Shown here piece after piece: positions 12,956-43,259 of a stretch of DNA of 43,259 nt. Each line of letters opens with the position of its first letter. Position 1 is the first letter of the stretch. The stretch lies in assembly GCA_030532425.1 (NCBI GenBank), contig JAUNLD010000019.1:1-43259 (forward strand), read 5' to 3'. The position numbers and the translations under genes are program-made. The notes beneath the pieces were generated by a model that was not told the origin of the DNA, made no database searches, and was given only the letters and a program-made list of their open reading frames with translations. The stretch is from Lautropia sp. GTDB taxonomy: Bacteria; Pseudomonadota; Gammaproteobacteria; Burkholderiales; Burkholderiaceae_E.

Positions 12956-15052
12956 TCAGATCCGGCTGCGCCGCCGAATCTCGCGCAGCCAGCGTGACCA
13001 ACGCCAACTACGTGACGCCAGCAAGGTGTCTCTTTCCTGTTCCAGCGCCTGAATCCGTGTCTGGTACTGATCGATCCGCGTCAGGTTCTCGATGTTCTCC
13101 TGGTCGCGCAAGCTTACATGCCGCTGCGCGTCCGCCAGCTGTGCACGCACCCCGCCCAGCTCATGCTGAAGCCGTGCCACCTCTTCGGCACGCTTCTGCT
13201 GCAAGCCCGCAAAGTCTGCCCGAAGCTGCGCCACGGTTTCGTTCACCAGCAGAAAAGGCATCCGCGTTCCACCATTCAGATGATGGCCATCCCTGCGAGA
13301 CGCCAGGGTCCGGGAAAATTGTGCCTCCAGACCGAACCAGGCCTGCACATCCTGCTCGGAAGCCTCGAAACCACAGGCCTCGGCCAGCGCCACCACCACA
13401 TCAACCAGCGCAATCGCGGGCTGTTCTGGCACCACACCCAACTGCAGGGTATGCAATACGCCACGTGTCAGTACCCATCCCGCAGGCACCGGGCAGGAAA
13501 CCACCCATTCCTGGTCGATGAGCTGACACTGGTCATCAGCACCCACCATCAGGTTGAAGGGAGCGTGATCGAGCCGGTTGCCCGGCAGACAGTAGAGGCG
13601 CAGCAAGCGCCCGGCTGTTGCGGATGGCACTCCGGTGCTGACGGCAGTCACAGGAGCATCAACTTCCGTCGAGACACCAGCCTCCGCCTCTATCCCCCCA
13701 GCTTTCGACGCATCATCCGCCAACGGCAACAGCGGTGAAACACCTTCTTCGGCCTGTTCCAGCAACAGCCGGGCCCAAGGCAAGAGCGCCTGTACCAGAC
13801 TCGTCACATCAGCTTGCCTGGCATGGACGCGCAGCACCTCCCAAGCCTGTTGCCAACCCGGAAAATAATCTGCATCACCCAGTTCCACTCCAAGGGTCTG
13901 CCCCTGCACAAACGGGAGCCACCTCTCCGGGCCAGGCAGCAGCGCGCGCTTGTGTACATGCACGGCGCTGTTCTTTCCTGCTTCCAGGCGTGTTTCGGTG
14001 CACCACAGAGGCTGGCGATGAACTGCAAAGGTCCAGGCCAGCGCCTGCGGTTGCCACGGCGTGGCCCCTGCACCGGCCTTGCTCTCATCCATTGCCGAGG
14101 CCTCTGCCGAAGCCACAACCAGAAAGGAATTGGCCAAATCAGCTAACAAGCCGTTTTCTTCCAGCACGCGGTTGACCAGCGCCTCGTCAAAGACGCGCAG
14201 CATGTTGCCGCTGTAGTCTTCGCTGAAATTGCGCAACAGCAGATCCGCCGCATTGAATCCGGGATGCGCCAGCGCGGCATCGGTCAGCACCACATTGGGC
14301 ACCTTGTAATCTGGGTAAGGGTACAGCCACTGCTGCTGCTCCAGCCCGGCCTGCGTCAGCACCCGGCCCAGCGCCTTGCGCCCAAAGGTGCGCACGCCAC
14401 CGCTGGGCAGGTAAAGATCCTGCACACCGGCAAAGGGCTTGCCCAGATGGTCTTCACCGCAGCCGTTGAAGTACTTGAGGCCCAGCTGGTTCTCGATGGC
14501 GATGACCACCCGCCCGCCCGGCCTGAGATGCCGAATGGCGGACTGAAGGTAGGCCTGGTACGGGTCTTGGGCACCCGAATAGGCACCGGCGTACTCCAGC
14601 ACACCGATCAGCGTCACCCAGTCGTAGGCGCCTTCCACATTGACCGTCTGCAGGTCGTCGGCAATCACCTGCACATTGGGCAGGTCGTGGCAGCGAGCGG
14701 CAGCCACGCGGGCACGGGCCAAGCTGCCTTCGACGGCCGTCACCTGAGCGCCGGTCTCGCCCAGGTAACGGGTGATGGCACCGGTGCCGCAGCCCAGCTC
14801 CAGCACACGATCGCCCGGGCCGATACCCAGCGGGCGCAACAGGCAGTGGCGCGAGCGGCTGAAGTGATAACGCGTGGACCAGTCGTCGATGCTGTCCACG
14901 AGCCCCTGAGAAAAGGTGCTGCAATCGCCCAAGCCTTCAATCACGCGTAGCAGGCGTCCCTCGGCCTCCTGACCTTCGCTGTAGCCAAAAGCCTCGGCCT
15001 CGGGACGAAAGTACAGGTTGTAGACAGCATCTTTCTGATATTTGGTATTCAT
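12956..15052 (-). CDS. WbdD-like chain-terminating protein: methyltransferase, kinase-like domain, coiled coil
   Basis: A 698-residue multidomain protein. Residues 60-200 are a class I SAM methyltransferase (motif I VLELGCGTG at 83-91; LRPGGRVVIAIEN at 176-188). Residues about 335-580 look like an atypical kinase: LDHAPFN (494-500) has the D-x4-N catalytic-loop pattern and LIDQEW (511-516) the metal-binding Asp 13 residues after N500. A low-complexity linker (about 445-480) interrupts this region. Residues 600-680 form a heptad-rich coiled coil, ending in a basic-aromatic tail (WRWSRWLREIRRR). This is the architecture of E. coli O9a WbdD, which caps the O-antigen and measures its length. The gene overlaps wzt by 4 bases, which fits a cap recognised by the transporter. 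The kinase assignment is the least certain part. Confidence 0.75.
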   Translation of the reverse strand: MNTKYQKDAVYNLYFRPEAEAFGYSEGQEAEGRLLRVIEGLGDCSTFSQGLVDSIDDWSTRYHFSRSRHCLLRPLGIGPGDRVLELGCGTGAITRYLGETGAQVTAVEGSLARARVAAARCHDLPNVQVIADDLQTVNVEGAYDWVTLIGVLEYAGAYSGAQDPYQAYLQSAIRHLRPGGRVVIAIENQLGLKYFNGCGEDHLGKPFAGVQDLYLPSGGVRTFGRKALGRVLTQAGLEQQQWLYPYPDYKVPNVVLTDAALAHPGFNAADLLLRNFSEDYSGNMLRVFDEALVNRVLEENGLLADLANSFLVVASAEASAMDESKAGAGATPWQPQALAWTFAVHRQPLWCTETRLEAGKNSAVHVHKRALLPGPERWLPFVQGQTLGVELGDADYFPGWQQAWEVLRVHARQADVTSLVQALLPWARLLLEQAEEGVSPLLPLADDASKAGGIEAEAGVSTEVDAPVTAVSTGVPSATAGRLLRLYCLPGNRLDHAPFNLMVGADDQCQLIDQEWVVSCPVPAGWVLTRGVLHTLQLGVVPEQPAIALVDVVVALAEACGFEASEQDVQAWFGLEAQFSRTLASRRDGHHLNGGTRMPFLLVNETVAQLRADFAGLQQKRAEEVARLQHELGGVRAQLADAQRHVSLRDQENIENLTRIDQYQTRIQALEQERDTLLASRSWRWSRWLREIRRRSRI

Positions 15053-16662
15053 GCGTGCCCTTCAATCTCTACGCGCATATCGAAATCGGCAAGCCCCTGG
15101 CAGCGCGACTGCCGTCTGACATTGATGAGAAGACTGTCGTACCGGCGATCCAAAGGTTCGACTTCCCCACCTCCGACCTCCTGCGCCACCCCCAGTGAAA
15201 CCAGGAAATCACCGGCACCAATGCGGAGATCCATCTGAAAGACCACACGCACGATCTCTCCCGCCTGCACCGCGCGCGTAATCGGACCGCCCGGAAAATC
15301 GCGCGAGTTGCTGCCGTAGACCGTCACACCATCCGGCGTCTTGATGGTAAGGCCAAAAATGGGGGCCAGCACATCAACGCGAAACCGCACCCAGGCGACG
15401 ACCAGCACCTGCTGTCCCGTGGCCAGCCTCACCTCGTGATCCACACCATTGGTCGTCACCATGCAGTCGATGATCTCGACTTCCCGGCTTCCCCAGCGGA
15501 ATTCGTCCTTGTTGTACCCTGCCCTGTCCTCGAAACGCCCTGGTGGTCGCGTGATGACCCGGCCTGCCAATGCGCTGAAATCGGGAAAGACAGATTCGTG
15601 CAGCGTCCCTGCCGACGGGTCGGCCGTCTTGTCTGCCGCAAATCCCGCAGCCCCGGCCGTGCCATCAGCGCCCTCCACGCCTGCGGCCTTGCTACCGGTC
15701 GCACCGGGTGAAGCAAGGCTCGCAGACGGTGCCAACGGCACGCTGACCTGCGAGGCTGTTGTGGCAGAGGACGAAGACGTGTCAGCCCGCTCAACCCCGA
15801 ACATCAGGTCCAGATAGGTATTGGCCACATCCTTGGGCGGGCCGATCTGGTGGACGACACCGCCATCGAGCAGGATGGCACGGTCGCAGTGGCGGGTGAT
15901 CTGGTCGATGGAATGGGTGACGAGCAGGATGGTGGTGCCGCGCGCCACCAGCTCTTCGAAGCGGCGAAAGCACTTGGCCTGGAACTTGGCGTCGCCCACT
16001 GCCAGTGCCTCGTCGACGATGAGGATATCGGGGTCGATGCAGGCCGAGACGGCAAAGGCCAGGCGCACGTACATGCCCGAGGAATAGGACTTGACCGGGC
16101 GCTCGATGAATTCGCCGATGTCGGCAAAGGCGGCGATGTCGTCGAAGCGGCGGTCGATCTCGGCCCGGCTGATGCCGAGGATGGCGCCGTTGAGATAGAC
16201 GTTTTCGCGGCCGGTGAATTCGGGGTTGAAGCCGGCCCCCAGCTCCAGCAGGGCCGCCACCCGGCCGCGCATCTCGACGGTGCCGCCGGTGGGCGCCAGT
16301 GTGCCGCAGAGGATTTGCAGCAGCGTGGACTTGCCCGCGCCGTTGCGGCCGACGATGCCGACGACCTCGCCGCGGCGGATGGTGAAGTCCAGCCCCTTCA
16401 GGGCCCAGTATTCGCGGAAGTAACGTGGCGGCTGACGGCCCAGCAGGCGCGCAGCCCGCCCCACCAGCATCTGCTTGAGCATGTGGCCGGGGCGGTCATA
16501 GAGCAAAAAGCACTTGGTGAGCCCCTGCACGCGGATGGCGATGTCGTCAGGCGCATGCGGGACCGGATCGGCCCCCAGGCCGGGCGGCGCTTCGGCCGGG
16601 TGGTGGGCAGGCACGGACGGCACTGGCGCCTGGCCAGCAGGGTGCAGGTGTTCAGAGGACAT
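15049..16662 (-). CDS. wzt: Polysaccharide ABC transporter ATP-binding protein with C-terminal carbohydrate-binding domain
   Basis: A 537-residue Wzt. The ABC domain (about 40-290) has Walker A GRNGAGKST (105-113), signature YSSGMYVRL, Walker B ILIVDE (213-218) and the switch His at 250. An Ala/Ser/Gly-rich linker (292-356) leads to a C-terminal beta-sandwich-like domain (about 380-537) with the Wzt CBD pattern EFRWGSREVEIID followed by alternating strands. Such domains bind the modified non-reducing end of the polymer before export. The ATG at 16662 overlaps the wzm stop by 11 bases; a longer in-frame start would sit deep inside wzm. It is followed at an ATGA overlap by the WbdD-like gene that would make the cap. 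Confidence 0.93.
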   Translation of the reverse strand: MSSEHLHPAGQAPVPSVPAHHPAEAPPGLGADPVPHAPDDIAIRVQGLTKCFLLYDRPGHMLKQMLVGRAARLLGRQPPRYFREYWALKGLDFTIRRGEVVGIVGRNGAGKSTLLQILCGTLAPTGGTVEMRGRVAALLELGAGFNPEFTGRENVYLNGAILGISRAEIDRRFDDIAAFADIGEFIERPVKSYSSGMYVRLAFAVSACIDPDILIVDEALAVGDAKFQAKCFRRFEELVARGTTILLVTHSIDQITRHCDRAILLDGGVVHQIGPPKDVANTYLDLMFGVERADTSSSSATTASQVSVPLAPSASLASPGATGSKAAGVEGADGTAGAAGFAADKTADPSAGTLHESVFPDFSALAGRVITRPPGRFEDRAGYNKDEFRWGSREVEIIDCMVTTNGVDHEVRLATGQQVLVVAWVRFRVDVLAPIFGLTIKTPDGVTVYGSNSRDFPGGPITRAVQAGEIVRVVFQMDLRIGAGDFLVSLGVAQEVGGGEVEPLDRRYDSLLINVRRQSRCQGLADFDMRVEIEGHA

Positions 16663-36262: not shown

Positions 36263-39200
36263 TCAGCTTGCGCCGAACTCGATCAGCAGATCATGCGCAG
36301 CCACCGTCTCGCCGGGGTTGACGCATACCCGTGCCACCACGCCATCGCGCTCGGCCCGGATCTGCGATTCCATCTTCATGGCCTCGATCGAGACCAGCGG
36401 ATCACCGGCCTTGACCTTCTGGCCCGCCTTGACCGCCACGGTGCCGATCATGCCCGGCATCGGCGCACCCACCTGCAACGGGTTGCCCACCGCAGCACGC
36501 TCACGCTGGCGCGTCGCCACCTTCGAGGCCGCATCCAGCACCCGCACCGTGCGCGGCTGACCGTTCATCTCGAAGAAGACCTTGACGTAGCCCTCGGCGT
36601 CGGGGGCCGTGCTGCCCTGCAACGAGATCAGCAGCGCCTTGCCCTGATCCAGCTCGACGGAGATTTCCTGCTGCTCCCGCAAGCCGTAGAAATAGGCAGG
36701 CGTCGGCAACAGGCCCACGTCGCCATAGCTGCGCTCATGTGCCCAGTAGTCCTTCATCACCTTCGGATACATCAGCCACGAGGCAAGCTCGCGCTCGGCC
36801 AGCGGCTTGCCGGCCACATCTTCAGCCTGCTCGCGCACGGCCGCGAAATCCACCGGTTCGATACGGTCGCCCGGCCGATACATCGAGGGCGGCTCGGCCT
36901 TCAGCACCTTGCGGCTCAGCTCGGCCGGAAAGCCGTCGGGCGGGAAACCCAGCTCACCCCGGAACAGCGACACCACGCTTTCGGGGAAAGCCACCTCACG
37001 GCTGGGATCGGTCACGTCTTCGGGTGTCAGGTCGTTGGCCACCATCATGATCGCCATGTCTCCCACCACCTTGGAGGTGGGCGTGACCTTGACGATGTCG
37101 CCGAACAGCTTGTTGACTTCGGCATAGGCGCGCGACACCTCGGGCCAGCGGTGTTCCAGACCGATGGCCCGCGCCTGCTCGCGCAGGTTGGTGTACTGGC
37201 CACCAGGCATCTCGTGGTGATAGACATCGGCCGTGCCGCTGCGGATGTCGGACTCGAAGGGTGCATAGAAGCGGCGCACACCCTCGAAATAATCCGCCAG
37301 TTCGCGCAGTGCCGACTGATCCAGCCCCGGATCGCGGGCATCGCCCGCCAGCATCGCCACGATGGTGTTGAGACTGGGCTGGGAGGTAAGGCCGCTCATC
37401 GAATCGAGCGCACCATCGACGGCATCGACGCCGGCAGCCACCGCCGCCATCACCGTGGCCACCGAGGCACCGCTGGTGTCGTGGGTGTGAAAGTGGATGG
37501 GCAGGCCGGTTTCTTCACGCAGCACGCGCACCAGCTCGGCAGCCGCGCGCGGACGGCAGACCCCTGCCATGTCCTTGATGCCCAGCACGTTGCAGCCGGC
37601 AGCCTCCAGCTGTTTGGCCAGCCCAACATAGTAAGCCAGACCATATTTCGGCCGCGATGAATCGAAAATGTCGGCCGTATAGCAGAGCGTGCCTTCGCAG
37701 ATGGCGCCGCTTTCACGCACCGCGTCGATCGCCACCCGCATGTTGTCGACCCAGTTGAGCGAATCGAACACCCGGAAGACATCGATGCCATTGCTGGCGG
37801 CCTGCTGCACGAAGTGCCTGACGACGTTGTCGGCATAATTGGTGTAGCCGACGGCATTGGAGGCACGCAGCAGCATTTGCAGCAGCATGTTGGGCATGGC
37901 CTCGCGCAGTTTCTGGAGGCGATCCCAGGGGTCTTCGTTCAGGAAGCGGTAGGCCACATCGAAGGTGGCGCCGCCCCAGCATTCCAGCGACAGCAGCTGC
38001 GGCAGCCGGTGTGCATACACGGGAGCGGCCGGCAGCATGTCGTAGGTCCGCATCCGGGTGGCAAACAGCGACTGGTGCGCATCGCGCATCGTCGTGTCGG
38101 TCACGAGCAGCTGTTTCTGCTCACGCATCCAGCGGGCAAAGCCCTCGGCCCCCAGCGCCTGCAGGCGCTGGCGCTGGCCGGCAGGTGGCTGGGCGTTGCG
38201 GTCGGGCAAGGCAGGTTTCACCACCCGCACATGGCTCAGATCGGGCGCAGCCCGGCCCTTCATGTCGGGCTGGCCATTGACGATGACCTCGCCCAGATAT
38301 TGCAGCAGGCGGGTGGCACGGTCGCGGCGTGCCGAAAAGTCGAACAGCTCAGGGGTGCTGTCGATGAAGCGGGTGGTGACGCGGCCTGCGGCAAAGTCGG
38401 GATGATTGATGACGTTTTCGACAAATTGCAGGTTGGTGGCCAGCCCGCGAATGCGGAATTCGCGCAGCGAGCGGTCCATGCGGCGGATCGCCTCGGTGGC
38501 CGTGGCGCCCCAGGTCGTCACCTTCACCAGCAGCGAATCGTAGTACGGCGTGATGACTGCACCGCTGTAGGCCGTTCCGCCATCCAGGCGCACGCCAAAA
38601 CCGGCAGCACTGCGGTAGGCGCTGACACGGCCGTAATCGGGAGTGAAACCGTTTTCAGGGTCTTCGGTGGTGACACGGCATTGCAGCGCATGGCCATTGA
38701 GGCGGATGTCGGCTTGCGCCGGCACGCCCGAGCCCAGCTCGACCAGACGGCCATCGGCATCGAAGCGGTCTTCACGCTGGCCGATGCGGGCCCCCTGGGT
38801 GATGAGGATCTGGGCCTTGACGATGTCGATGCCGGTGACTTCCTCGGTCACGGTATGCTCGACCTGGATGCGCGGATTGACCTCGATGAAGTAGAACTGG
38901 CCGCTGTCGGCATCCATCAGGAATTCGACCGTGCCGGCATGGGTGTAGCCCACCGCACGGGCCAGCTTCAGGGCGGCATCGCACAGGCCCTGGCGCTGTT
39001 CATCCGTCAGGTAGGGCGCGGGCGCGCGCTCGACCACCTTCTGATTGCGCCGCTGCACCGAACAGTCGCGCTCGAACAGATGGACGACGTTGCCATGCAG
39101 GTCGCCCAGAATCTGCACCTCGACGTGATGCGCGCGACGCACCAGCTTTTCGAGGTACACCTCGTCATTGCCGAAGGCAGCCCGGGATTCGCGCCGGGCC

Positions 39201-39769
39201 ACCGGCAGCTGCACCCGCAGGTCGTCGGCATTCTCGATGGCACGCATGCCGCGGCCACCTCCGCCCCAGCTGGCCTTGAGCATCAGCGGATAGCCGATCT
39301 TCCCGGCCAGCGCCAGACACTGGTCGATGTCGTCGGGCAGCGGATCGGTGGCAGGCATCACCGGCACACCGGCCGCGATGGCGGCCTCGCGCGCGGCCAC
39401 CTTGTTGCCCAGGCGTGTCATCACCTCGGGCGAGGGGCCGATGAAGGCGATGCCGGCCGCGGCGCAGGCACGGGGCAGGTCGGGGTTTTCGGACAGGAAG
39501 CCATAGCCGGGGTGGATGGCATCCGCGCCCGACTGCCGGGCGATGCGGATGATCTCGTCGATGTCGAGATAGGCTTGCAGGGGCTTCTGCCCCTTGCCCA
39601 CCAGATAGCTCTCGTCCGCCTTGGTACGGTGCAGGGCCAGCCGGTCTTCATGAGAGTAGATGCCGATGGTGCGCAACCCCAGCTCGGCAGCCCCGCGCAT
39701 GACGCGAATGGCGATCTCGGAGCGGTTGGCCACGAGCACTGATTTCAATCGTTTGACTTGCCCATCCAT
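36263..39769 (-). CDS. pyc: Pyruvate carboxylase, single-chain
   Basis: A 1168-residue protein. It contains the biotin carboxylase domain (about 5-455, with KASWGGGGRGMR and FIEVNPRIQVEHTVTEE), the carboxyltransferase TIM barrel (about 540-810, with TTMRDAHQSLFATRMRT), the tetramerisation/PycB region and the C-terminal biotin domain with EAMKMES (biotinyl K1132). It converts pyruvate, ATP and bicarbonate to oxaloacetate. ATG 39769 was chosen because GGGAGG lies 8 bases upstream; an in-frame start at 39805 would precede this site. The alpha4-type single chain is complete and no regulator gene is adjacent. Confidence 0.96.
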   Translation of the reverse strand: MDGQVKRLKSVLVANRSEIAIRVMRGAAELGLRTIGIYSHEDRLALHRTKADESYLVGKGQKPLQAYLDIDEIIRIARQSGADAIHPGYGFLSENPDLPRACAAAGIAFIGPSPEVMTRLGNKVAAREAAIAAGVPVMPATDPLPDDIDQCLALAGKIGYPLMLKASWGGGGRGMRAIENADDLRVQLPVARRESRAAFGNDEVYLEKLVRRAHHVEVQILGDLHGNVVHLFERDCSVQRRNQKVVERAPAPYLTDEQRQGLCDAALKLARAVGYTHAGTVEFLMDADSGQFYFIEVNPRIQVEHTVTEEVTGIDIVKAQILITQGARIGQREDRFDADGRLVELGSGVPAQADIRLNGHALQCRVTTEDPENGFTPDYGRVSAYRSAAGFGVRLDGGTAYSGAVITPYYDSLLVKVTTWGATATEAIRRMDRSLREFRIRGLATNLQFVENVINHPDFAAGRVTTRFIDSTPELFDFSARRDRATRLLQYLGEVIVNGQPDMKGRAAPDLSHVRVVKPALPDRNAQPPAGQRQRLQALGAEGFARWMREQKQLLVTDTTMRDAHQSLFATRMRTYDMLPAAPVYAHRLPQLLSLECWGGATFDVAYRFLNEDPWDRLQKLREAMPNMLLQMLLRASNAVGYTNYADNVVRHFVQQAASNGIDVFRVFDSLNWVDNMRVAIDAVRESGAICEGTLCYTADIFDSSRPKYGLAYYVGLAKQLEAAGCNVLGIKDMAGVCRPRAAAELVRVLREETGLPIHFHTHDTSGASVATVMAAVAAGVDAVDGALDSMSGLTSQPSLNTIVAMLAGDARDPGLDQSALRELADYFEGVRRFYAPFESDIRSGTADVYHHEMPGGQYTNLREQARAIGLEHRWPEVSRAYAEVNKLFGDIVKVTPTSKVVGDMAIMMVANDLTPEDVTDPSREVAFPESVVSLFRGELGFPPDGFPAELSRKVLKAEPPSMYRPGDRIEPVDFAAVREQAEDVAGKPLAERELASWLMYPKVMKDYWAHERSYGDVGLLPTPAYFYGLREQQEISVELDQGKALLISLQGSTAPDAEGYVKVFFEMNGQPRTVRVLDAASKVATRQRERAAVGNPLQVGAPMPGMIGTVAVKAGQKVKAGDPLVSIEAMKMESQIRAERDGVVARVCVNPGETVAAHDLLIEFGAS

Positions 39770-39805
39770 CGACAGGAACCTCCCTAGCACACCACAGAAA
39801 AGCAT

Positions 39806-40238
39806 TCACCAAAAATGTCAGGGACCATTGAAGACCCTTGAGGCACCGATTATGCCCTGATCGTGTACCTTCTCCTGCCAAAGGCCGGGGTAGCCCGCCT
39901 CCACGCCTTCAGCCCGTTTTTTGCTACTTCCTCCCGCTTGACCCCTCAAGCCACCCAAAAAACCCGGCAGCAGGCGAGGACATGCTCCAGAATAGCGGGC
40001 ATGACGCCAGCCCCCGGCACCGCAAGACCCTCGTCAGGCTGTGTCGATCGTGCAACCGATGAGGCGTTCAATCAGGCACCCTGTTGGCTGCAAACCCGCA
40101 TGAAACGCCAGATATCTGCCACCACGACCTGTCTGCCCCGGTGCGGCCCTACCCCCAGGAGTCCCCTGTACCCGGTCCGCCCGGCGATCCGGCCGACCAT
40201 CGGGCCGGGTTTGCCTGTGCCCTCGCCTGCTCGCAGGA
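39806..40238. other. Intergenic region upstream of pyc and the protease gene
   Basis: About 430 bases with no credible gene. It must contain the divergent promoters of pyc and the lipoprotein protease, but no clear -10/-35 pair is seen. CCGGCC and GGCCGG around 40190-40207 form a small hairpin. Confidence 0.4.
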
Positions 40239-40261
40239 TGCCTGCCTGTCGTTGGCAGGCA
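40239..40261. promoter_or_regulatory. Inverted repeat upstream of the S8 lipoprotein gene
   Basis: TGCCTGCC (40239-40246) and GGCAGGCA (40254-40261) are perfect arms around TGTCGTT, 49 bases before the protease ATG. The same core occurs at 42866-42889 upstream of the second lipoprotein gene. Confidence 0.5.
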
Positions 40262-40310
40262 GGTCTCTGACACCTTGCCATTCACATTCACCACGAGAAT
40301 CAGAACCATC

Positions 40311-42101
40311 ATGCCTTCCGCCCGTCCACGCCATGCCACCCGATGGTCCACGCCCCTGTTGCTTGTCCTGCTGGCCGCCTGCGGTGGCGGAGGCGGGGGC
40401 GGCAGCAACAGCAGCAGTGGTGACAGCTCGCAAGGCGGCAGCACGACCCCCCCCTCACCACCGCCGGCCGTGGGCACCCTGCTCAACTCGGCCAGCTGCG
40501 AGCTGAAGTTCTATGCCCGCGAGGCCACGACGCCGCGTGTGGGCACCGATCCACGCCAGCACCGGCTGTGGCATCTGAACAATACCGCTTCGTTCGCCGG
40601 TGCCGTCGCCGGTGAAGACCTCCGGCTGGGCAGCGTGCGGGCAGCCGACGGCAAGGGTCAGGGCATCCGGGTGGCCGTCATCGACGATGCGCTGGACATC
40701 ACCCACGAAGACCTGATGCCCAATGTGGTCAGCGGCAGCTTCAACTACAACGTGAAGGCCGACTGGAAGCGGGGCAGTGCCTATCCGCTGCCCTGCCTGC
40801 GCACCAGCAGCCACGGCACCGAAGTGGGTGGCGTCATCGCCGCGCGTGATGGCAACGCCGTCGGCGTGGCAGGCGTCGCCCCACGGGCCAGCCTGGTGGG
40901 CCTGAACGCCCTCTCGGGTGGAGAGGACCGCGACGTGCTGGATGCCCTCACCCGCGACCTCAGCCTGAATCATGTCTTCAACAACAGCTGGGGAGCCGAC
41001 GACATCGGCCACTTTGCCGATCCCACCCCCAGCCCGGACATCTACAAGGCGGCCATCGACTCTGGCCTGCGCAATGGCCGCGATGGCCTGGGATCGATCT
41101 ACGTGTTTGCCGCCGGCAATGGCGCCCACCAGTCGGACTACTCGGTCTACGACGGCAACGTCTCGCTGTACGGAACGATTCCGGTGTGCTCGTTCAACGC
41201 CGCGGGCAAACGCGCCTTTTACAGCGAACCGGGGCCGAACCTGCTGGTCTGCGGCCCCTCGGGCGATGTGGGCCCCGGTGGGACAAACAGCAAGCTGCCG
41301 GCCATCGACACCACCGAGCCGCAAAACACCTATGCCGACAACAGCTTCAACGGCACCTCGGCGGCCGCACCGATGGTGTCGGGCGTGGCCGCGCTGATCC
41401 TGCAGGCCAACCCCAGGCTGAGCTGGCGCGACATGCGCCTGGTGCTGGCCCAGAGCGCCCGCAAGGTCGACCCCACCGACGCGGGCTGGACCACCTTCGG
41501 CAGCTACCATTTCAACCACAAGTATGGTTTTGGTGCCGTGGACACCGACGCAGCCGTGCGCCTGGCCCGCAGCTGGAGCAGCGTGGGCGGCAGCAACACG
41601 GTCAAGACCTGTGGCCCCTACACCGCCACCGTGGATCAGCCGATCCCCGAAAACAACCTGATGACCATCGATCAGGCCTACCTGGACACGATGTACGACA
41701 CGCTGACGCTGGACAAGCCGGTATCGGGCGGCCTCAGCAGCAAGATCACCATCCCGGCCGACTGTGCCATCACCCACATCGAGCACGTCGAGGTGAAGAT
41801 GACCGTCACCAATGCATCGGGCACGGCCGAACACCCCGATTCGGGCCACCTCCAGACGACCCTGACCAGCCCCTCCAACCAGACCAGCACGCTGACCGTG
41901 CCGCACCTGTGCCAGAACCCGCAGACCGATGGCCTGGCTGCCTGCACCGGCCTGGTCAACTTCAACTTTGGCATCAATCGCCACCTGGACGAACCGGCTG
42001 CCACCAACGCGCTGCGCGACTGGACGCTCGACGTGGTGGACCGCATCGCCCAGAAAAGCGGCAAGCTGAAGTCGTGGAGCATCACCCTGCATGGGCGTTG
42101 A
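40311..42101 (+). CDS. Kexin/ASP-like S8 serine protease, lipoprotein with P domain and no propeptide
   Basis: A 596-residue predicted lipoprotein. The signal ends in the lipobox LAAC with lipidated C24, followed by a Gly run and a Ser/Pro linker to about residue 55. The subtilisin domain begins near RLWHLNN (85-91) and has Asp in VAVIDDALD (D125), His in SSHGTEVGG (H168), the oxyanion Asn in FAAGNG (N270) and Ser in NGTSAAAPMVSG (S350). Residues about 445-596 match the proprotein-convertase P domain (LRDWTLDVVDR, GKLKSWSITLHG). No inhibitor-I9-type propeptide lies between the lipobox and the catalytic domain. ATG 40311 gives a proper lipoprotein signal. The downstream gene encodes a likely external chaperone. 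Confidence 0.88.
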   Translation: MPSARPRHATRWSTPLLLVLLAACGGGGGGGSNSSSGDSSQGGSTTPPSPPPAVGTLLNSASCELKFYAREATTPRVGTDPRQHRLWHLNNTASFAGAVAGEDLRLGSVRAADGKGQGIRVAVIDDALDITHEDLMPNVVSGSFNYNVKADWKRGSAYPLPCLRTSSHGTEVGGVIAARDGNAVGVAGVAPRASLVGLNALSGGEDRDVLDALTRDLSLNHVFNNSWGADDIGHFADPTPSPDIYKAAIDSGLRNGRDGLGSIYVFAAGNGAHQSDYSVYDGNVSLYGTIPVCSFNAAGKRAFYSEPGPNLLVCGPSGDVGPGGTNSKLPAIDTTEPQNTYADNSFNGTSAAAPMVSGVAALILQANPRLSWRDMRLVLAQSARKVDPTDAGWTTFGSYHFNHKYGFGAVDTDAAVRLARSWSSVGGSNTVKTCGPYTATVDQPIPENNLMTIDQAYLDTMYDTLTLDKPVSGGLSSKITIPADCAITHIEHVEVKMTVTNASGTAEHPDSGHLQTTLTSPSNQTSTLTVPHLCQNPQTDGLAACTGLVNFNFGINRHLDEPAATNALRDWTLDVVDRIAQKSGKLKSWSITLHGR

Positions 42102-42159
42102 ACACCGCTTCCCGACGACATTCCACATCCAACCTCTTCCGTCTTTGGAACACCTCATC

Positions 42160-42699
42160 ATGTTCAAGAAAAGCGTAGCCCAGCCCCTGGCCCTGGCGGC
42201 CGCCCTGCTGCTGGGAGCCCAGCCCGCCCTGGCCGCCGATGACGGCAACACCGTGGCGCTGCATGGTCCCGATGGCAGTGTGCGCACCTTCACGATCGAC
42301 AGCGACCACGTGCTCCAGAAAGGGAGCGACGGTGCGGCCGGCACGCAGGTCCGCAAGGCCAGCGCCACCGAAAGGAAGGCCCTGAAAAGCCTCAGGAGCA
42401 AGGCCCTTACCGCCGACCAGGACAGTGCCGTGATCCCGGTGCTGCGGGATGCAGCCGGCCGTGCCTGGGGCTTGCCGGGCGGCCTGATCGTGACGCTGCA
42501 CACGGCGGTCAGTGAGGAAGAAGGCCGTGCCCAGCTCGAAGCCGCTGGCCTGGTGCCCGAGCAGCGGATCGCCCCCAATCTGTGGGTGGTGCAAAGCCCC
42601 GCCGGCCTGCCCAGCATCGAGCAGGCCAACGCGCTCAATGCCAGGGGCCTCTTTGCCGACGTGGTGCCCAACTGGTGGAACAAGCGCACCCTGAAGTAA
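42160..42699 (+). CDS. Secreted propeptide-like protein, probable external chaperone/inhibitor of the S8 protease
   Basis: A 179-residue protein with a Sec signal (MFKKSVAQPLALAAALLLG, cleavage after ALA near residue 25). The C-terminal half reads like an S8 propeptide: GLIVTLHTAVSEEEGRAQL, then EAAGLVPEQRIAPNLWVVQ, then IEQANALNARGLFADVVPNW. That is the beta-alpha-beta-beta-alpha-beta pattern of propeptides ending in a tail that would occupy the active site. It starts 58 bases after the protease stop. Aeromonas sobria ASP, a kexin-like protease lacking a propeptide, needs the downstream-encoded ORF2 as chaperone; this arrangement is the same. Homology at sequence level was not computed. Confidence 0.68.
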   Translation: MFKKSVAQPLALAAALLLGAQPALAADDGNTVALHGPDGSVRTFTIDSDHVLQKGSDGAAGTQVRKASATERKALKSLRSKALTADQDSAVIPVLRDAAGRAWGLPGGLIVTLHTAVSEEEGRAQLEAAGLVPEQRIAPNLWVVQSPAGLPSIEQANALNARGLFADVVPNWWNKRTLK

Positions 42700-42771
42700 T
42701 GACCAGGGGCTGCAACATGGGCCGCTGAGGCCACCTTGCTGTCCACGACTTTTCTGCCGTCACAGGCCCCC

Positions 42772-42802
42772 GCCCGAGCCGCTGCGCCCGGGCTTTTTTT
42801 TG
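42772..42802 (+). terminator. Rho-independent terminator after the protease-chaperone pair
   Basis: GCCCGAG (42772-42778) pairs with CCCGGGC (42787-42793) with one mismatch, followed by nine T (42794-42802). It ends the two-gene unit. Confidence 0.85.
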
Positions 42803-42865
42803 GCCCTGATCCTCTTCCCTTCAGCGCAGGCATGGCGGTCTGAGCGGGCGGCTCAAGGGCGGCGC

Positions 42866-42889
42866 TTGCCTGCCGTCCCAGGCAGGCAA
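42866..42889. promoter_or_regulatory. Inverted repeat upstream of the second lipoprotein gene
   Basis: TTGCCTGCC (42866-42874) and GGCAGGCAA (42881-42889) are perfect 9-base arms around GTCCCA. The TGCCTGCC/GGCAGGCA core is the same as upstream of the S8 lipoprotein gene. It lies 108 bases before the ATG at 42998. Confidence 0.5.
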
Positions 42890-42997
42890 CCGTATGTCAT
42901 GCGCAACAGCACGATGTCTTGGCGCAACGATCGGGCGTCGTTACCCTGCAACAGCTGTGCAGAGTCCCGACCCCGACACGACATCCCATCGCCCCTC

Positions 42998-43259
42998 ATG
43001 CGCGCCTTCTCCCGCCCTCCGTTTGCTTCACGCTGGACCACCTCATTGCTGCTTGGCCTGCTGGCCGCCTGTGGCGGTGGAGGCAGTGGTGCCGAGCTCT
43101 CCTCACCGGGCCAGACCTCCGACAACCCCGGTACGGACCTGCTGCTGAGCGTGCAGGTACTGGAGGCACTGAGCCGCGAAGCACAGGACGGCGAAGCGCC
43201 ACGACATGAAACGCCGGGCACCGCCCCTGGCATCACCGGGCCGGCCTCCGGTACGGGCA
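42998..43259 (+). CDS. Lipoprotein, 5' end only; leader closely similar to the S8 protease lipoprotein
   Basis: The frame is open from ATG 42998 to the window edge (87 codons). It starts MRAFSRPPFASRWTTSLLL and has the lipobox LLAAC at residues 21-25, then GGGGSG and a Ser/Pro/Gly-rich linker. The leader matches the S8 lipoprotein (RWSTPLLLVLLAACGGGG against RWTTSLLLGLLAACGGGG), and DNA around the lipobox is also alike. It may be a second secreted protease or another surface lipoprotein; the catalytic part is outside the window. The residues after the linker (about 46-87) show no recognised domain. Confidence 0.7.
   Translation, partial: MRAFSRPPFASRWTTSLLLGLLAACGGGGSGAELSSPGQTSDNPGTDLLLSVQVLEALSREAQDGEAPRHETPGTAPGITGPASGTG

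Follow-up and report, generated by a model that had tools for sequence, protein, structure and literature searches.

The prodomains of S8 proteases generally fold first, dock, speed the folding of the enzyme and hold its active site with their tail. The S8B enzymes Kex2 and furin/PC1 release their prodomain by self-cleavage. The exported lipases of Pseudomonas and Burkholderia are served by the foldase Lif, a separate steric chaperone whose gene lies immediately behind the lipase gene. Among subtilases, the N-terminal propeptide is described as an intramolecular chaperone, with ASP excepted, in a 2022 survey (PMC9549277). ASP of Aeromonas sobria (PDB 3hjr; with its chaperone ORF2, 3wqb) is a freely secreted kexin-like S8 enzyme with a P domain and no propeptide of its own, and ORF2, which has a propeptide-like fold, is encoded just downstream of it. 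According to a report on this pair (PMC5638518), ORF2 ends in Gln-Pro-Lys, the Lys apparently touching the catalytic centre, and inhibits ASP with an IC50 of 84.3 nM; asp-orf2 operons are found in five genera (Aeromonas, Vibrio, Shewanella, Chromobacterium and Pseudoalteromonas).

Here we describe a comparable pair of genes in a 43,259-nucleotide stretch of Lautropia sp. DNA (the window; contig JAUNLD010000019.1). An earlier note, made from the letters of this stretch, had read the pair as a split protease with a separate propeptide, and that interpretation is supported by the analysis below. The note had also named ASP and ORF2 as the precedent, an analogy that extends to the C-terminal Lys and is strengthened by the adjacency of this protease type to the propeptide in all 40 fetched family loci. 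The domain order of the protease, its lack of an internal propeptide and the position of the partner gene are shared with ASP/ORF2. In contrast to ASP, the Lautropia protease is predicted to be a stalked lipoprotein, a difference that the note had anticipated and that is borne out by the lipobox Cys24 in 30/30 aligned Lautropia proteases. The Lautropia propeptide also scores below the Pfam ORF_2_N cut-off and ends in R-x-L-K rather than Q-P-K (PMC5638518), and in the tandem arrays of Lautropia the proteases outnumber the propeptides. Kex2 and furin/PC1 share the order of catalytic and P domains, acids at the S1 positions and the predicted prodomain fold, but their prodomain is covalently part of the chain, whereas in Lautropia it is encoded by a separate gene. 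Lif differs in fold, which is unrelated to that of the Lautropia propeptide, and in arrangement, since Lif is membrane-anchored and the lipase free, the reverse of the situation predicted here. We judge the kind of system to be known from ASP/ORF2 and the lipid anchor, the wider spread and the multiplication in Lautropia to be new; among the open-licence papers listed by the literature searches, none dealt with Lautropia kexin-like proteases or with a lipid-anchored split pair.

A predicted kexin-like lipoprotein without a built-in propeptide

The protease gene (40311..42101, + strand; ATG at 40311, stop at 42099-42101) encodes an S8/kexin-like protein of 596 aa. Its predicted lipoprotein signal peptide (40311..40382) was recognized by eye from the lipobox LAAC, which ends at Cys24. 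It is followed by a stalk of 55 residues (40383..40547) that reaches Asp80, where the kexin-like part begins in the alignment, and that is rich in Gly, Ser and Pro in its first part. This stalk is too short and too simple to be a propeptide. The Peptidase_S8 catalytic domain (40656..41534; residues 116-408, E 1.8e-44) carries D125, H168, N270 and S350, and a P domain (P_proprotein, 41814..42089; residues 502-593, E 3.4e-9) lies near the C-terminus; no other Pfam domain was found above the cut-off in the window protease. Among chains of solved structure, those most similar in sequence are Kex2, furin and then ASP (3hjr). Both traits of S8B kexins, the P domain and an acidic S1 pocket, are present: by furin/Kex2 numbering we take D231 and D281 to be the S1-pocket acids, and they are spaced like the S1 acids of furin.

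These features are conserved across the genus. Thirty Lautropia proteases were aligned; the alignment omits a protease whose 5' end is missing (contig C110 of the window genome), a truncated one from G003 and a disrupted L. dentalis copy. C24, D125, H168, N270 and S350 are invariant in 30/30, and D231 and D281 are each D or E in 29/30. A domain scan identified S8 in 30/30 and the P domain in 29/30, and propeptide models at E 0.01 matched 0/30 of the same proteases. The domain architecture described in the earlier note (lipobox, linker, catalytic domain and P domain, with no propeptide) thus agrees with both Pfam and the alignment. Covariation of the S4 pocket with the P4 Arg of the partner was also sought, and no pattern was found, position 237 being unconserved. 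Because the residue at +2 is Gly, the protease is probably tethered to the outer membrane through its predicted lipidated Cys24.

The partner gene starts 58 bp further on (gap 42102-42159), on the same strand and in another frame. Scanning 39700-43259 revealed neither a promoter-like site nor a terminator on the + strand. By eye only, an inverted repeat followed by a T run can be seen near 42771-42801.

Homology and predicted fold of the separate propeptide

The partner gene (42160..42699, + strand; ATG at 42160, stop ending at 42699) encodes 179 aa. A signal peptide of 25 aa with an AxA-type cleavage site (42160..42234) was predicted by eye. Alignment and the predicted structure divide the mature protein into an N-terminal module (42235..42468), which opens with a YWYDG...RR-like motif in many non-Lautropia relatives, a putative S8 propeptide domain of beta-alpha-beta-beta-alpha-beta order (42469..42672) and a C-terminal tail (42673..42696). 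The tail ends in Arg-Thr-Leu-Lys, resembles a cleavage product and is predicted to lie in the protease cleft. The last residue is Lys in 52/52 family propeptides examined, and the fourth-last is Arg in 44/52 and Lys in 2/52.

Searched alone, the 179-aa protein gave no credible match in Pfam, NCBIfam or PDB sequences, so its identity is read only from family-level evidence and fold. It likewise found no related loci, and PDB sequence searches returned chance matches or none, whether run with this protein alone or with either of two profiles. A profile (A2) was built from 34 of the 52 family propeptides and compared with 340 genomes of the class, where it matched in 13 genomes, the window's own included. 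Three of the proteins recognized were fused S8 proteases, in which the profile matched the N-terminal prodomain (E 1.1e-6, 2.1e-6 and 5.4e-4 per genome). The matched regions sit right before the catalytic domain and overlap the Pfam model Fervidolysin_NPro-like (PF22148). The prodomain of these fused subtilases thus shares ancestry with the C-terminal half of the separate propeptide, but it is joined to its protease and the N-terminal module of A2 is unmatched there.

Neither of the two relevant Pfam models, Fervidolysin_NPro-like and ORF_2_N (PF18492), reached its curated cut-off on the window propeptide. Across the 34 relatives, PF22148 gave weak matches in 4 (best E 0.0022). One standalone relative, L192, clears the PF22148 cut-off (25.0 vs 21). 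ORF_2_N scored 16-18 bits in 2/34, against a cut-off of 29.2. At E 0.001 the same model found 0 matches in 369 class genomes, a zero that does not mean absence; at E 1 it gave only matches below the cut-off, in 23/74 family genomes and mostly away from the protease-propeptide locus. A2 was also compared with three ORF2-like proteins, one each of Pseudoalteromonas, Vibrio and genome G212. None of these comparisons was significant, though the G212 protein aligned collinearly with A2 over 82 columns. ORF_2_N is passed by the Pseudoalteromonas and G212 proteins among these three, and the C-terminus is not basic in two of them, those of Vibrio and Pseudoalteromonas. The profile comparison proposed in the earlier note therefore came out in two parts: N-terminal S8 prodomains are recovered with the family profile, whereas the window protein fails the Pfam ORF2 family.

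The predicted structure of the 179-aa protein (pLDDT 78, pTM 0.70) shows the beta-alpha-beta-beta-alpha-beta arrangement in residues 109-170, with block-mean pLDDT of 90-97, against 67 for the final nine residues. By E-value, ORF2 in the ASP complex (3wqb_B) was the first of 971 Foldseek matches in the PDB, with probability 1.00, a weak E of 0.036 and a TM-score by target length of 0.58. Lower in the ranking came the furin-bound PC1 prodomain (9fid_E, probability 0.96), pro-subtilisin E (3whi_B, probability 0.95) and a further PC1 prodomain (9fic, probability 0.91); the remaining ones, among the matches listed, had probabilities of at most 0.69. No PDB match among the 971 reached E <=0.001. 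The fold check suggested in the note thus returned ORF2 ahead of PC1 prodomains and pro-subtilisin E, the latter at probabilities of at least 0.91. Taken with the family profile, these results indicate that the C-terminal half of the 179-aa protein is a predicted S8 propeptide domain, in agreement with the note's description of a signal-peptide protein with such a half 58 bp downstream of the protease.

Conservation of the locus and tandem arrays in Lautropia

In 74 genomes of the family, the propeptide was found in 58 and the protease (at 1e-40) in 65; 56 genomes have both, 2 the propeptide only, 9 the protease only and 7 neither. The propeptide-only genomes are G033, in which the protease is cut by a contig end, and G023. 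In the nine protease-only genomes, the propeptide is cut by a contig end in 2 and none is adjacent in 7, so that an adjacent propeptide is absent in 7/65 protease-bearing genomes. We fetched 40 of the 54 non-Lautropia family loci, and in 40/40 the propeptide is immediately preceded by a protease match. In 4/40 the protease is truncated where the contig stops, and locus L062 carries two proteases. A lipobox was seen by eye in 37/37 fetched family proteases with a complete N-terminus; judging from this motif, a lipid-anchored protease is the usual predicted form among the relatives found here.

The flanks of the locus recur as well. Upstream of the window protease, on the - strand, lies a gene (36263..39805) that we take from general knowledge of its sequence to be pyruvate carboxylase, a flank that tblastn of the loci found to be common to many relatives. 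In the 40 non-Lautropia loci (tblastn, E 1e-20), pyruvate carboxylase is divergently upstream in 23 and PepN is downstream in 30, with both in 16 and neither in 3. For 11 Lautropia loci searched, the corresponding numbers are 6 for pyruvate carboxylase, 8 for PepN and 3 for neither; several loci in these counts are too short to show both flanks. Genus g15 has no carboxylase flank, even in long stretches. Since the flanks and the upstream protease recur across the family loci, the data suggest that the locus is old, was inherited vertically as a single pair and has grown into arrays in Lautropia. A mirror-tree comparison of protease and propeptide distances at 21 loci gave no covariation beyond the species signal (partial r -0.02, p 0.56), and a plasmid search with a family propeptide gave no match.

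Similar pairs were also seen outside the family. The propeptide was matched in 12 of 399 genomes of the order, 11 of them within the family; the other, G404, has a propeptide that ends in Arg-Gln-Arg-Arg and may, by its sequence, itself be a lipoprotein. In G212, also a member of the order, an S8 lipoprotein is followed by a protein ending in Arg-Thr-Pro-Lys. Because this partner passes both ORF_2_N (29.8 vs 29.2) and Fervidolysin_NPro-like (24.5 vs 21), it ties ORF2, the S8 prodomain and the lipoprotein arrangement together. The class sample contains 12 standalone copies in 9 genomes outside the order, from 6 families. An S8 protease adjoins 11/12 of these copies, in 5 gammaproteobacterial families, with the propeptide downstream in 10; in G654 the order is reversed and the propeptide precedes the protease, and in G506 no protease was found within 12 kb of the propeptide. 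All 12 copies end in Arg or Lys. A lipobox was seen by eye in 9/11 adjacent proteases, the displayed stretch stopping short of the N-terminus in the other two, and, again by eye, about half of these standalone propeptides also resemble lipoproteins. Genome G311, from another family, has an S8 lipoprotein without an adjacent propeptide.

In the oral bacterium Lautropia, the locus has been multiplied unevenly. A second S8 lipoprotein gene, not mentioned in the earlier note, begins near the end of the window (42998..43259, + strand) and is cut by the contig end. The window genome (88.8 % complete) has only two S8 matches, the window protease and one on contig C110 that lacks its 5' end. C110 then leads on to PepN, which fits an adjacent position of the two contigs. 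The second protease is thus probably split over both contigs, and its catalytic part is probably G000:C110:1-1870, a joining made by synteny. Counted in this way, the window genome has two proteases and one propeptide (2:1). The propeptide was found in 9/9 genomes of the genus, in 12 copies in total. The ratio of proteases to propeptides at the locus is 5:1 in G001 (plus one disrupted copy), 4:1 in G002 and G005, 4:2 in G004, G006 and G008, 2:1 in G007 and 1:1 on the truncated contig of G003, and G001 and G004 each have one extra protease elsewhere in the genome. Overall, the Lautropia arrays hold 2-5 intact proteases with 1-2 propeptides, and a search of 11 array loci with the wider-family profile found no further copy of this propeptide family.

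Members of an array differ in their stalks. From Cys24 to Asp80, the stalk measures 41-100 residues in the 11 proteases that adjoin a propeptide and 68-256 residues in 17 array proteases that do not, a comparison that omits two remote copies besides the proteases left out of the alignment. The Mann-Whitney p of 1.7e-5 is not a true probability, because the compared genes are related. In a protease tree, made by a quick method and with many open forks, the second pair of G006 and G008 traces to one duplication of protease and propeptide together. The tree suggests that duplication was partly parallel in two species groups, and many unpaired array proteases have longer end branches, a feature that depends on sampling. 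The window pair is the old core of the tandem array.

Proposed maturation in trans and its alternatives

We consider it highly probable that the two genes form a split system, in which a lipid-anchored protease is matured by a separate propeptide chaperone acting in trans. The neighbouring genes would yield protease and propeptide as two proteins. The protease would be exported, lipidated at Cys24 and left hanging from the membrane on a flexible stalk. The 179-aa protein would be exported by its ordinary signal peptide, fold first, as S8 propeptides do, and dock on the catalytic domain, where it would speed folding as a steric chaperone. Its R-x-L-K tail would then occupy the cleft much as a cleavage product does, placing the Lys in the acidic S1 pocket, and would inhibit the protease until the propeptide is degraded or gone. 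In a Lautropia array, one propeptide would most likely mature several proteases.

Chance adjacency of the protease gene to an unrelated secreted protein could account for the failure of the single sequence to find a credible database match. However, the two genes adjoin in 40/40 fetched loci, the fold matches ORF2 and the PC prodomains, and the family profile matches S8 prodomains; a chance neighbour is hardly credible. A functional partner could instead be chiefly an inhibitor, like the standalone I9-type inhibitors, which keeps the lipoprotein protease silent until needed while the protease folds unaided. S8 propeptides do inhibit as well as fold, and S8 lipoproteins stand without an adjacent propeptide in the 7/65 family genomes mentioned above and in G311. 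Against this, 0/30 aligned Lautropia proteases have a built-in propeptide, and the first structural match is ORF2, which itself both folds and inhibits and which is reported to be required for maturation (PMC5638518). We therefore regard a mainly inhibitory role as unlikely.

How far a propeptide reaches beyond its immediate neighbour is a closer matter. Each propeptide may serve only the protease just upstream, with the other array members folding alone, using another helper or being inactive. The shorter stalks of propeptide-adjacent proteases (41-100 vs 68-256 aa), the longer, sampling-dependent end branches of many unpaired ones and the placement of a second propeptide after a second protease in G004, G006 and G008 all fit such a one-to-one arrangement. 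In contrast, the catalytic D, H, N and S are identical in 30/30 proteases and the S1 acids nearly so, and the 11 array loci searched hold no further family propeptide. One-to-one service is thus a serious contender, but on balance we find it rather doubtful. Sharing is the simplest reading, since the catalytic residues of the unpaired proteases are intact and no further propeptide of the family was found in the arrays; a free chaperone could move among several enzymes because the enzymes are the lipid-tethered partners. In its broadest form, this reading would have one freely diffusing propeptide mature up to five stalked, lipid-anchored kexin-like proteases, with stalk length setting their reach from the membrane. 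The pairing of an S8 lipoprotein with a detached propeptide would then be a design general to gammaproteobacteria, and secreted ASP would be a side branch of it. We put this forward tentatively, with slightly more doubt than confidence.

With the trans-acting scheme, the ASP exception becomes a broader class with an old locus. With natural ratios of protease to propeptide from 1:1 to 5:1, one can examine whether many clients can share one steric chaperone. It can also be asked what is gained by detaching the propeptide, such as control of a membrane-anchored enzyme or repeated use of one propeptide, and whether the substrate preference of each enzyme can be read from the basic residue at the C-terminus.

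Additional proteases in Lautropia

A second S8 lipoprotein gene is probably split over two contigs, occupying positions 42998-43259 of the window and 1-1870 of L003, a locus on another contig of the same genome (G000:C110). On either side of the contig gap, the flanking sequence is the gene's low-complexity stalk, the segment between the lipobox cysteine and the catalytic domain.

In the L. dentalis array (locus L024), the first protease (14463-16246), which is the member closest to the pyruvate carboxylase side, is disrupted and reads in two frames. Three array proteases without an adjoining propeptide, all on the minus strand (starts at L024 8888 and at L026 7608 and 5092), carry signal peptides that by eye resemble the one on the propeptide. 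The pattern in this signal region looks as if sequence had been exchanged inside the array.

Protease variants in other genomes

By eye, the gammaproteobacterial split proteases of L188, L190 and L191 have repeated Ig-like-looking segments ahead of the catalytic domain, replacing the simple stalk. No propeptide was seen adjoining the S8 lipoproteins of loci L157-L163 and L167 (genera g13 and g14; genomes G012 and G311).

Separate propeptides outside the family of Lautropia

In G654 (L187 2584-5186), gene order is reversed, with the separate propeptide gene preceding the protease gene. The standalone propeptide of G506 (L186) ends in a C-terminal lysine, and no protease was found within 12 kb of it. 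On inspection by eye, the propeptide itself seems to have a lipobox in other families, at L123 (9168-9662, minus strand), L186 and L192-L196, so that both partners, protease and propeptide, may be lipid-anchored.
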